Of a DNA stretch of 35,033 nt, positions 30,454 to 35,033 are shown piece after piece (within the stretch, counting starts at the first letter, position 1; every line of letters starts with the position of its first letter). The DNA comes from Acidobacteriota bacterium (GTDB taxonomy: Bacteria > Acidobacteriota > Terriglobia > Bryobacterales > Bryobacteraceae). The DNA lies in the NCBI GenBank assembly GCA_016213755.1, contig JACQZT010000241.1, forward strand, positions 1 to 35,033, read 5' to 3'. The notes under the pieces are model-generated. The model saw only the letters and a list, made by a program, of their open reading frames with translations. It did not search any database and was not told the DNA's origin. The translations under genes were made by a program, and so were the position numbers.

Positions 30454-30529
30454 CTGGGGACAGTATACTCAAACACCAATTCCGAAAGACAGTTGACCGG
30501 GAACTTTGGTGTGAGTGTACTGTCCCCAG
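30454..30529. repeat. Palindromic REP-like element (GGGGACAG family), imperfect
   Basis: Left arm CTGGGGACAGTATACTCAAACACCAATTCC; right arm (reverse complement) CTGGGGACAGTACACTCACACCAAAGTTCCC. Confidence 0.8.
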
Positions 30530-30604
30530 CTTGCGACTGGGCAGGGGTGGCATAATAGACGGTTGCACTATATTGCTCCCCAAACCGGCGCGCGGTCCGA
30601 GCGG

Positions 30605-33529
30605 ATGCGGTATTTCGGCTTTGCCGGCGCCGTCGGAATCCTGCTTCTGCTCAACCTGGCCGGGATCTGGAAGACCGTCTTCGGCCTCGACACCGCAGCC
30701 ATCCTGACCGTCGTCGCCGGCTACCGCATCTTCTACAACGCCGTCTCGCAGCTTCTCGAAAAGAAGATCTCGGCGGACCTGGCCATCTGCATCGCCGTCA
30801 TCGCGGCGCTGGCCGTGGGCGAGTACCTGGCGGCGGCCGAAGCGATGTTCATCATGCTGGTGGGCGAGGGGCTGGAAGGCTACGCCGCCGGCCGCACCGA
30901 GGCCGCCATCCACCGCTTCGTGGAGCAATTGCCGCGCCGCACCCGGCGGGTTCGCGACGGCGCCGAGGAAGAGGTGGACGCCTCGGCCCTGGAGGTGGAC
31001 GACGAGATCCTGGTCCGCTCGGGCGAACGCATCGCCGCCGACGGCGTGGTGGCGCAGGGCGTCTCCTCGGTCGACGAAAGCGCCATCACCGGCGAGTCGC
31101 TGCCGCGCGACAAGCAGCCCGGCGACGAAGTATTCTCGGGCACCCTGAACGGAAACAGTCTGCTGCGCATTCGCGTCACCCGGGCGGGCGAAGATACCAC
31201 CCTGGCGCGCGTCATCCGCCTGGTCGAGGACGCCAGACAAAAGCGCGCGCCGGTCGAGCGCCTGGCCGACCGCTGGGCGCGCTACTTCCTGCCCGCCCTC
31301 CTGCTGGCCGGCGGGCTCACCTACTATTTCACCAACGACTGGCTGCGCACCGTCTCCGTGCTCATCGTGGCCTGCCCCTGCGCCCTGATCCTGGCCACGC
31401 CCACGGCCATGGTGGCCGCCATCGGCGGCCTGGCGCGGCGCGGCATCCTGGTGCGCGGCGGAACCGTGTTGCAGGAAGCCGCGCGGGTCAACACCGTTGT
31501 GTTCGACAAGACCGGAACGGTGACCGAGGGGCGCTTTGAAGTCGTCAAGATCCTGCTCGATCAGGCGGCGTCGGAAGAAGAATTGCTGCGCCTGGCCGCC
31601 ACCGCCGAGAGCGGCTCGGATCACACCCTGGCGCTGGTGATCGTCGAAGAGGCCGCGCGCCGCGGCATCTCACCTCCCGCGACGGAAGACGCGCGCGTCA
31701 TCCCCGGCCGGGGCGCCGAATGCACGCTGGCCGGCCGCACCATCCGCGCCGGCAACGCGCAGTTCCTGGCCGATCATGGCATCCGTGGCGCCGAGCCGGC
31801 GCTCGAAGAAGCCGACCGGCTGGGCGCCACCACCGTGCTGGTGGCCGCGGGCGACCGCCTGGCGGGCGCTATTCTGCTGCGCGACCGCCTGCGCGCCGGC
31901 GCCCGGCAGGCCGTTCTCGCCCTCCGGAAAGACCTCGAGATCCCCTGGCTGGTGATGCTCACCGGTGACCGCCGCCAGGCTGCGGAAGGCATCGCGCGCG
32001 AGACCGGCATCCCCAACGTGGAAGCCGAGCTGCTGCCGGAGCAGAAGGCCGACCGCGTCCGGCAACTCGCCTCGCAGGGCCGCGTGGTGGCCATGGCCGG
32101 CGACGGCATCAACGACGCCCCCGCGCTGGCTGCCGCCAGCGTGGGCGTGGCGGTGCACGGCGCCAGCGACATCACCGCCGAAGCGGCGGGCGTGGTCTAC
32201 ATGGGCCACTCGCTCGAGAAGCTCCCCAAGCTGTTCGAGGTGAGCCGGCGCGCGGTGCGCACGGCCTGGCAGAACATTATTCTCTTCGCCGGCGTGGTGA
32301 ACCTGCTCGCGGTGGGTGCGGCGGCCTACGGCCAGATCGGTCCGTTGGGCGCGGCGTTCACCCATCAACTCGCTTCCCTGTTCGTGATGCTGAATTCGCT
32401 GCGGCTGCTGCGGGTGGAACGGCCGCGGCGGCGCCGGCAGTGGCTCCACCGCGCCCATCATCTCGCCGCCGCGATCGATCCGAAGGACTGGTTCAACTGG
32501 GTAGTGGCTCGGCGGCGCGAACTCGCCCGGCCCGCGCTGGGCGCGGCGGTCCTGCTGGCCGCACTGAACGGCTTCTACATTCTGAACCCGAATGAAGTGG
32601 GCGTCATCGAACGCTTCGGCCGCCGCGTGCTGCCTTCCCGCGAGCCGGGATTGCACTACAAGCTGCCCTGGCCGATCGAGAAACTGACTCGTGTCGAGGC
32701 GCGCCGCGTGCGCACGATCGAAGTGGGCTTCCGTTCGAGCGGCGCCGTTCAGGGCGCCGAGCCGGCCGCTTACGAGTGGAACGTGCAGCACCGAGCGGGG
32801 CGCTTCCAGCGCAAGCCGGAAGAGTCGCTGATGCTCTCCGGCGACCAGAACATGATCGAGGTCAACGCCACGGTGCATTACCGATTGACTCGGCCCGACG
32901 AGTTTCTCTTCCGGCAACTGGACGGTGAGACCACGGTGCGCGCGGCGGTGGAGTCGGTGTTGCAGTCCATCGCCTCCACCACGCCGCTGGACGACATCTT
33001 CACCGTCGGGCGGCGGGCCATCGAGGCGCGCGCCAAACGGGAGATCCAGCAGAGGCTGGAACGCTATGCCGCAGGCGTCGAGGTGCTGGACGTGAGGCTG
33101 CTGGACGTGCACCCGTCTTTGGAGGTGGTGGACGCCTTTCGCGAGGTCTCCGCGGCTTACGAAGAGAAGAGCCGCCTGGTCAACGAAGCCGAGGGCTACC
33201 GCAACGAGCAGGTGGCGCTGGCGCGCGGCAACGCGCAGGCCCGCCTGGCCACGGCCGCCGGCTACTCGGCGGGAAAGAAGAACCGCGCGGCGGGCGACGC
33301 CGACCGGTTCCGCCAGGACGAAGCGGCCTTCCGCGCGGCGCCTGGCCCCACCGAAATCAGGCTGTACCTGGAGACCATGGAGCTGGTGCTTCCGGGCCGC
33401 AATAAAATCATTGTCGACGGCGGCCGCGGCCGCCGCCACCTGGTGCTGTTGGACGACGGAGTGGAGATCGGCCCGGCCATCGCGCCGGCGGTGGCCGCGC
33501 CCCGCGCCGCGCCCCTGGAGGAGCGTTAG
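30605..33529 (+). CDS. P1B-type heavy-metal ATPase fused to an HflK-like SPFH/prohibitin domain
   Basis: ITGESLP, ACPCALILATP (CPC), VFDKTGTVTEG, MAGDGINDAPALAAASVGVA, then an extra TM (ALGAAVLLAALNGFYIL) and NPNEVGVIERFGRRVLPSREPGLHYKLPWPIEKLTRVEARRVRTIEVGF ... PTEIRLYLETMELVLPGRNKIIVDGG (HflK hallmarks) in one uninterrupted frame. Confidence 0.92.
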   Translation: MRYFGFAGAVGILLLLNLAGIWKTVFGLDTAAILTVVAGYRIFYNAVSQLLEKKISADLAICIAVIAALAVGEYLAAAEAMFIMLVGEGLEGYAAGRTEAAIHRFVEQLPRRTRRVRDGAEEEVDASALEVDDEILVRSGERIAADGVVAQGVSSVDESAITGESLPRDKQPGDEVFSGTLNGNSLLRIRVTRAGEDTTLARVIRLVEDARQKRAPVERLADRWARYFLPALLLAGGLTYYFTNDWLRTVSVLIVACPCALILATPTAMVAAIGGLARRGILVRGGTVLQEAARVNTVVFDKTGTVTEGRFEVVKILLDQAASEEELLRLAATAESGSDHTLALVIVEEAARRGISPPATEDARVIPGRGAECTLAGRTIRAGNAQFLADHGIRGAEPALEEADRLGATTVLVAAGDRLAGAILLRDRLRAGARQAVLALRKDLEIPWLVMLTGDRRQAAEGIARETGIPNVEAELLPEQKADRVRQLASQGRVVAMAGDGINDAPALAAASVGVAVHGASDITAEAAGVVYMGHSLEKLPKLFEVSRRAVRTAWQNIILFAGVVNLLAVGAAAYGQIGPLGAAFTHQLASLFVMLNSLRLLRVERPRRRRQWLHRAHHLAAAIDPKDWFNWVVARRRELARPALGAAVLLAALNGFYILNPNEVGVIERFGRRVLPSREPGLHYKLPWPIEKLTRVEARRVRTIEVGFRSSGAVQGAEPAAYEWNVQHRAGRFQRKPEESLMLSGDQNMIEVNATVHYRLTRPDEFLFRQLDGETTVRAAVESVLQSIASTTPLDDIFTVGRRAIEARAKREIQQRLERYAAGVEVLDVRLLDVHPSLEVVDAFREVSAAYEEKSRLVNEAEGYRNEQVALARGNAQARLATAAGYSAGKKNRAAGDADRFRQDEAAFRAAPGPTEIRLYLETMELVLPGRNKIIVDGGRGRRHLVLLDDGVEIGPAIAPAVAAPRAAPLEER

Positions 33530-33534
33530 CCGAG

Positions 33535-34425
33535 ATGCAGTTAGAAAAGTACAGGCGATACTTCCCCGCCCTGGCCGCCCTGGGCCTGCTGGTCTTGCTG
33601 TGGCTGACCTTCTTCACGGTGCGCGAAACCGAGTTCGTGCTGGTGACCCAGTTCGGCCGGCCGCTGTACACGGTAACCGAGGCGGGCTTGCACGCCAAAT
33701 GGTTTTTCCAATCCGGCACTTTCTTCGACCGCCGTCTGCGCATCTACAATCCGCGCCCGTCGGAGTTCCTGAGTCGCGACAAGAAAAACCTGGTGATCGA
33801 GAGCTACGTCGCCTGGCGCATCCGCGATCCCAAGCGCTTTGTCGAAACCGTGGGCGACCCGGTGGCGGCCGAGATGCGCCTGCACGACATCGTCTGGTCG
33901 GGCCTCGCCGCCGCGCTGGGCACGGTGGACTTTGAGTCCATCGTCACTACCAACCGCGAAGCGGCGCAGGCCGCGCGCCTTCAAGACAGCCTCTCGACGT
34001 CCGCCGACCGCGCCGCGCTGGAGCAATACGGCATACAGGTCGTGGACGTGCGCATCAAGCGCCTGAACCTGCCCGAACAAAACAAGCAGAGCGTGTTCGC
34101 GCGCATGCGCGCCGAGCGCGAGCGCATCGCGCGCCAGTACCGCGCCGAGGGCGAGGAGCAGGCCCTGAGCATCCGCGCCGGCGCCGACCGCCAGCGCGAG
34201 GAGATCCTCTCGGCGGCCTACAAGGAAGCCGAGAAGACCAAGGGCGAGGGCGACGCCGAATCGACCCGCGTCTACAGCCAGGCCTACTCGCGCAACCCGC
34301 GGTTCTACAAACTGCTGCGCACGCTGGAGTCGTACAAGAAGATCCTGGACGACAAGACCACGGCCATTCTCAGCTCGGATTCCGAGCTGCTCAAGATCCT
34401 CATGCGGGGCGAGACGGCGCAATGA
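33535..34425 (+). CDS. hflC: HflC-like SPFH protein
   Basis: N-terminal TM; FFTVRETEFVLVTQFGRPLYTVTEAGLHAKWFFQ; VVDVRIKRLNLPEQNKQSVFARMRAERERIARQYRAEGEEQALSIRAGADRQREEILSAAYKEAEKTKGEGDAESTRVYSQAYSRNPRFYKLLRTLESYKKIL. Confidence 0.94.
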   Translation: MQLEKYRRYFPALAALGLLVLLWLTFFTVRETEFVLVTQFGRPLYTVTEAGLHAKWFFQSGTFFDRRLRIYNPRPSEFLSRDKKNLVIESYVAWRIRDPKRFVETVGDPVAAEMRLHDIVWSGLAAALGTVDFESIVTTNREAAQAARLQDSLSTSADRAALEQYGIQVVDVRIKRLNLPEQNKQSVFARMRAERERIARQYRAEGEEQALSIRAGADRQREEILSAAYKEAEKTKGEGDAESTRVYSQAYSRNPRFYKLLRTLESYKKILDDKTTAILSSDSELLKILMRGETAQ

Positions 34426-35033
34426 ACCGGCGCAAGATCTTGGGGCTTTTCGCCGTGCTGTGGCTGGCCTCCGGCATCTACATCGTGCCGGCCGACCAGC
34501 AGGCGGTGGAAACGCGCCTGGGCCGCGTGGTGGCGCCGCGGGTTCTGCCCGGCATTCACCTTTCGATGCCCTGGCCCATCGACCGCGTCTACAAGCTCAA
34601 GGTGCGGCAGCTTCAGCGGCTGGTGGTGGGCGGCGAGGCGGCCGACGGCGTGCTGGGCCGGGCGCAGCCGGTGACCTCGCAATTTCTCACCGGCGATCAG
34701 AACATCCTCCACCTGCGCATCGCGGTGCAGTACTGGGTGGGCGTTCCGGCCGACTATCTCTTCCGGGCCGCAGATGTCTCTCGCACCGTGGGCGCGGCGG
34801 TGGAATCCGCGCTGGCCGGGCGCATCTCGTCGCGCACTGTGGACGCCGTGCTTACCACCGAGAAGGCCGCCATTCAGGAGGAGGTCCGCGCGGCGGCGCA
34901 GAAGACCCTCAACGACTATCGCGCCGGCGTGATCCTGTCCACCGTGAACCTGGAGACGGTCGCGCCGCCGCCGGAGGCCGCCGATGCTTTCCGCGACGTG
35001 GCCAGCGCGCGCGCCGCTTCGCTGCGCATCGTC
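34422..35033 (+). CDS. Second HflK-like SPFH protein (truncated by window end)
   Basis: ATGA overlap with hflC; MNRRKILGLFAVLWLASGIYIVPADQQAVETRLGRVVAPRVLPGIHLSMPWPIDRVYKLKVRQLQ ... LTGDQNILHLRIAVQYWVGVPADYLFRAADV; open to the last base. Confidence 0.88.
   Translation, partial: MNRRKILGLFAVLWLASGIYIVPADQQAVETRLGRVVAPRVLPGIHLSMPWPIDRVYKLKVRQLQRLVVGGEAADGVLGRAQPVTSQFLTGDQNILHLRIAVQYWVGVPADYLFRAADVSRTVGAAVESALAGRISSRTVDAVLTTEKAAIQEEVRAAAQKTLNDYRAGVILSTVNLETVAPPPEAADAFRDVASARAASLRIV

Follow-up and report, generated by a model that had tools for sequence, protein, structure and literature searches.

HflK of E. coli has one transmembrane (TM) helix in front of its SPFH domain and is encoded next to HflC (TIGR01933 and TIGR01932; PDB 7vhp and 7wi3), and both proteins are known partners of FtsH, which the C-terminal extension of HflK has been reported to contact (PMC12005517). 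In eukaryotes, stomatin domes enclose AQP1 and UT-B (PMC12407830), which is an SPFH assembly with transporters like the one proposed below, but there the cargo is held non-covalently and does not include a pump. P1B pumps that are gathered by a scaffold are known from mycobacteria, where PacL gathers CtpC in membrane foci; PacL, however, is a DUF1490 protein and not an SPFH protein, and the foci form without flotillin (PMC9374683). In P. aeruginosa, the cluster PA2434-PA2439 holds the gene of the metal P-type ATPase HmtA, described as an atypical importer, together with three genes of the HflC/HflK family (PA2437-2439), and it is up-regulated in zinc depletion (PMC4542158, PMC11761036). The locus described here resembles this cluster in gene content, but whereas hmtA and the hfl genes are separate, here the ATPase and one HflK are joined in one gene, and this covalent link tells what one SPFH assembly has as its cargo. 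No description of a fusion between an SPFH or HflK domain and a P-type ATPase was found in the open-access full-text literature, and the word ATPase is absent from a 2009 survey of prokaryotic SPFH proteins. Both domains are known but their fusion is apparently undescribed in the open-access literature, and as far as that literature shows this agrees with an earlier sequence-only reading in which the locus was the best candidate for an undescribed system.

The window, by which we mean the whole stretch of DNA that was analysed, is the entire contig C99 of 35,033 bases from the 5.78-Mb draft genome of a soil bacterium that is in 503 contigs. Positions 30605-33529 of the forward strand, on which the hflC, second hflK, and protein features given below also lie, form a single open frame from an ATG at 30605 to a TAG at 33527-33529, which codes for 974 aa. 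The frame is already open upstream from a GTG at 30515, and this GTG falls within a palindrome with 30-nt arms that are 80% complementary (30454-30529), just upstream of the gene. The true start is probably the TTG at 30563 (TTG CAC, MHYIAP...), since relatives start with MH, VH, or LH at the same place, and the fusion gene would then be 30563-33529 with 988 codons. A palindrome related to that at 30454-30529 was also seen on contig C25 of the same genome.

With residues counted from the ATG, Pfam matches were found to E1-E2_ATPase (residues 108-279, 183.5 bits), Hydrolase (residues 296-511, 97 bits), and Band_7 (residues 659-864, 79.4 bits), and the protein scored 549.5 bits with NCBIfam TIGR01525 (cut-off 346) and 193.6 bits with TIGR01933 hflK (cut-off 159.4). 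By alignment and by AlphaFold2/Foldseek, the P1B ATPase part with helices MA, MB, and M1-M6 is residues 1-604 (30605-32416) and it is without an N-terminal HMA domain. It is followed by a basic linker (residues 605-636, 32417-32512), by a ninth TM helix seen in the hydropathy and in the AlphaFold2 model (residues 637-654, 32513-32566), and by an HflK-type SPFH1/SPFH2 region with a long helix, which is supported by Pfam, NCBIfam, and the model (residues 655-945, 32567-33439). SPFH1 contains an insert with the motif YEWNxQHRxGR, picked out by alignment and dN/dS (residues 714-749, 32744-32851). In the AlphaFold2 model, with a mean pLDDT of 78, the P1B ATPase leads through two linker helices to the ninth TM helix, and after it come SPFH1/SPFH2 and then the long helix; the confidence is low in the SPFH1 insert and at the C-terminus. 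The ATPase, the basic linker, the extra TM helix, and the complete HflK-type SPFH domain do share one frame, as the sequence-only reading had proposed.

In its ATPase half the fusion has in common with CopA, ZntA, and CoaT (TIGR01525), whose structures were matched by its model in Foldseek, the P1B fold, the catalytic motifs, and CPC in M4, but it differs from them in having HQxxS in M6, no HMA domain, and a C-terminal SPFH domain. TGE, CPC, DKTGT, LTGD, and GDGINDAP are all present in the window protein, which confirms the TGE, CPC, DKTGT, and GDGINDAP motifs that had been noted before. The CPC ion-binding motif (residues 257-259, 31373-31381) is invariant in an alignment of 50 fusions (alignment A2). 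In 65 frames of relatives, CPC, GDGxND, and the HQ of HQxxS (residues 587-588, 32363-32368, placed by alignment) were present in every one, TGE was present in 64 with TGD in the exception, and the DKTGT phosphorylation motif (residues 301-305, 31505-31519) was also present in 64, the exception being DKTGS in locus L101. The M6 motif HQxxS differs from MxxSS (Cu), HDG (Zn), and HEG (P1B-4) and it matched no named class. In M6, MxxSS is typical of P1B-1 and a D-containing motif of P1B-2. When the fusion was aligned with LpCopA and read by eye, the M6 Met was found to be replaced by His and the M5 Asn to be kept. In P1B-4 ATPases, whose M6 motif is HEGxT, the M6 His lies between the SPC residues (PMC8880997), and by analogy the M6 His of the fusion may play a similar part.

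An unfused sister P1B ATPase of the same HQ type, with HQVSS (L140, 3654-5910, reverse strand), adjoins a gene for a CsoR-type metal-sensing repressor. This neighbour, the His-rich additions found in some fusion operons, and the zinc-depletion cluster of P. aeruginosa are hints on the metal and on the direction of transport, both of which we infer, as we do the stoichiometry of the cage; the metal is probably a soft or borderline one (Cu, Zn, or similar). Export by the fusion is not certain because HmtA is called an importer. A rather unlikely possibility is that the fusion is likewise an importer that brings zinc or copper into the cell, the SPFH dome collecting periplasmic ions. It would fit with the clustering of hmtA with three hfl genes and their joint rise in zinc depletion (PMC4542158, PMC11761036), whereas the CsoR-type repressor beside the HQ-type sister is a neighbour often found with exporters and the two other types of fusion described below belong to efflux families.

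In 72 of 72 fusions the linker has a net positive charge and by the positive-inside rule it is presumably cytoplasmic, and we infer that the SPFH domain is on the periplasmic side. In one fusion (L046, which is the same as L180:3986-7069 on the forward strand, from carrier G278) the linker contains 18 His. The fusion shares with E. coli HflK an SPFH domain that scores over the hflK cut-off, the single TM helix, which is equivalent to the ninth TM helix of the fusion, and an adjacent hflC. It differs in that the N-terminal tail is swapped for a whole P1B pump, in the YEWN insert, and in an operon that has a second hflK. Y, E, W, H, and G of the insert are invariant in the 50 fusions of alignment A2, and YEWN was found in 63 of the 65 frames, with YEWS and YEWD in the other two.

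On balance, the protein is probably a working heavy-metal pump that is at the same time an HflK subunit, built into an SPFH assembly of three components, namely pump-HflK, HflC, and plain HflK. Going by the topology, the eight TM helices of the ATPase would leave its end in the cytoplasm, where the basic linker follows, and the ninth helix would bring the SPFH domain into the periplasm, so that the pump would stand in for the cytoplasmic N-terminal tail of HflK. If they behave like E. coli HflK/C, to which they are homologous, the subunits would form a periplasmic ring or dome, which would bring several pumps together and lie over the side on which the ion exits. Its role would probably be to concentrate and control metal transport, and possibly a partner within the dome would receive the ion. 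Plain HflK would dilute or space the pumps, and as a partner of the YEWN insert the small protein encoded in the operon is a candidate.

When the 41 genomes around that of the window were examined, the fusion was found in one frame in 24, one of these ending at a contig end, and in a further genome it was broken by an assembly gap. Identity to the window fusion over the whole length was 84% in another genome of the genus and 59-73% in other genomes of the order, and identity beyond the genus was 59-77%. The samples of the class and the phylum yielded more fusions, among them some in other classes of the phylum, with identity down to 44%. GTDB representative genomes were also scanned with the SPFH half and the best 80 of 280 relatives were taken. 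These loci are from Acidobacteriota and Armatimonadota and include records labelled Armatimonadetes and Zipacnadia, identity goes down to 43-50%, and the fusion is present in all 80 as far as the length of the contig permits a judgement. A frame of at least 900 aa is present in 65 of the 80; the remaining loci have contig ends or runs of N or are continuous on tblastn. The frame is interrupted by N in L058, L087, and L133, and L124 and L134 each gave one continuous tblastn match across the fusion. A natural split in L087 (genome G015) was considered and rejected because the break is a run of N and not a stop. Among 291 genomes of the same phylum that were searched around an Armatimonadota locus, about 11 were carriers. 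The sequence-only reading had asked whether homologues span both halves, and they do, so that the fusion is conserved in other genomes; it had also held that a stop or frameshift in the linker region would make two genes of one, and none was found there, the relatives keeping the same frame. That the fusion is an artefact of misassembly, of a missed stop, or of chance read-through might be thought of with a draft genome of 503 contigs, but it is exceedingly improbable because many independent assemblies, single-contig chromosomes among them, have the same frame, and assembly error or frameshift was rejected as the relatives keep the fusion in one frame.

Purifying selection acts on both halves. 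In three comparisons the ATPase part had dN/dS values of 0.15, 0.26, and 0.30, the SPFH part had values of 0.12, 0.25, and 0.29, and the values for the YEWN insert, 0.05, 0.15, and 0.20, were the lowest among the regions tested. In FastTree trees with a limited sampling of unfused relatives, the ATPase halves formed one clade with a support of 0.88 and the SPFH halves formed one clade with a support of 0.77, and therefore a single old fusion event is likely for P1B-HflK. None of the conclusions depends on the E. coli HflK tip of the SPFH tree. No relative of the fusion was found in viral_contigs, so a viral origin is unsupported, and among the plasmid matches listed none covers 80% of the P1B-HflK fusion query.

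The order of the operon in the relatives is the fusion, hflC, a second hflK, and a gene for a small membrane-anchored protein. In the window, hflC is at 33535-34425 (215 bits with TIGR01932, over the cut-off) and the second hflK, which has no pump, is at 34422-35033, where it is cut by the contig end and still scores 112.6 bits with TIGR01933 on the fragment. Because the window is a whole contig the operon ends within this gene, of which complete copies are present in the relatives. The small protein, of about 165 aa and from an uncharacterised family, was found at 43 loci, for example at L080:10070-10564 on the forward strand. Its model, with a pLDDT of 90.5, has an N-terminal TM helix and a predicted NTF2-like fold, the matches of which are weak and include YbjP on a TolC pump. 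No Pfam match over the cut-off was found in three members of this family, and neither in these three nor among the Pfam matches of the fusion is there PacL/DUF1490. The genes flanking the operon are not conserved, and metal genes were not enriched among 97 neighbours when the 25 commonest families were examined, so metal regulation of P1B-HflK is unsupported. In carrier G398 (L176:2647-7575, forward strand), the fusion and HflC have His-rich N-termini and a His-rich membrane protein without Pfam or NCBIfam match is encoded just upstream.

The operon might instead encode an ordinary HflK/C cage around FtsH in which the pump would make the proteolysis of membrane proteins metal-responsive, and this was the second function put forward in the sequence-only reading. 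Besides the known partnership of HflK and HflC with FtsH, it is in keeping with this that a single ftsH scores over the cut-off in the source genome and that no hflK reaches the cut-off in seven fusion-free genomes picked from the family, from which it follows that in carriers of that family the operon may be the only HflK/C. This ftsH, however, is on another contig than the fusion, and one carrier, G398, has a separate stand-alone hflK elsewhere. The fusion matches E. coli HflK to about residues 353-366 of 419 and 26 residues are left after the TIGR01933 match, and thus the long C-terminal extension that is reported to contact FtsH (PMC12005517) is missing. The other fusions of metal transporters to HflK likewise suggest that metal transport is what these proteins have in common. 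Control of FtsH finds little support and we consider it quite unlikely. Two other carriers (L173 and L174) also hold a second three-gene SPFH cluster.

Two further kinds of metal transporter were found joined to an HflK-like domain. The first is an SO_0444-type permease in proteins of 773-774 aa, which are encoded at L173:2687-5005 on the forward strand (genome G028) and at L174:5820-8141 on the reverse strand (genome G029), and whose N-terminal part matches the SO_0444 Cu/Zn efflux family with 319 bits (cut-off 300). The gene is followed by hflC and hflK-like genes, and L173 has two further genes nearby, one for an outer-membrane efflux protein and one for a ZIP transporter. This fusion is known from three genomes, all of Acidobacteriota, the third being carrier G278, in which a truncated piece from the end of this arrangement stands at the end of L179. 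The second, seen once, is at L181:6308-7852 on the forward strand of an Aquibium oceanicum plasmid (NZ_CP018172.1), where a protein annotated as HflK has Cation_efflux (89 bits) and Band_7 matches, and its gene is followed by hflC, hflK, a peptidylprolyl isomerase gene, and a gene for a P-type ATPase that has HMA domains. Hence, the annotation as plain HflK needs correction for at least one plasmid gene, which encodes a transporter fusion. Both arrangements are like P1B-HflK in that a metal transporter is joined to an HflK-like domain and is followed by hflC and hflK, but the transporter families SO_0444, CDF, and P1B are unrelated and thus the fusions are separate events.

That fusion to an HflK-like subunit happened at least twice more suggests that cages of the HflK/C type serve to organise metal transport, and with this recurrence a function of HflK/C-type assemblies in metal transport can be tested directly. 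The earlier proposal that pumps are set on an SPFH scaffold gains from these SO_0444 and CDF fusions and from the hmtA and hfl genes of P. aeruginosa, while its cage continues to stand on homology. If true, it would also explain why three hfl genes accompany hmtA in its cluster. The fusion might, on the other hand, be mere tethering, which would keep two separately working proteins at equal amounts or stability, or the SPFH domain might be an aid to folding or stability. Gene fusions often come from adjacent genes of one operon. PacL scaffolds, moreover, keep CtpC stable in mycobacteria (PMC9374683). Tethering, however, does not sit well with three unrelated transporters on the same kind of subunit and a highly conserved insert in the fused SPFH domain, and we give it a low probability. 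Beyond the pump-HflK assembly that we favour, homology and recurrence together raise a tentative possibility, that SPFH assemblies of the HflK/C type include compartments for metal transport, with P1B, SO_0444, and CDF transporters as subunits of the dome, so that ions would pass through the membrane into or out of a covered chamber in the periplasm and be handed over to partners in it.

The plasmid hflK genes of Tistrella, Azospirillum, and Alkaliphilus were rejected as further cases, being ordinary hflK-hflC with no metal transporter listed in the stretch. In plasmids of Vibrio, Roseibium, and Paracoccus (L186, L187, and L188), hflK-hflC is near nhaA, the gene of a Na+/H+ antiporter, which overlaps the hfl genes in Vibrio and is on the opposite strand in Roseibium and Paracoccus; this may be a related association.
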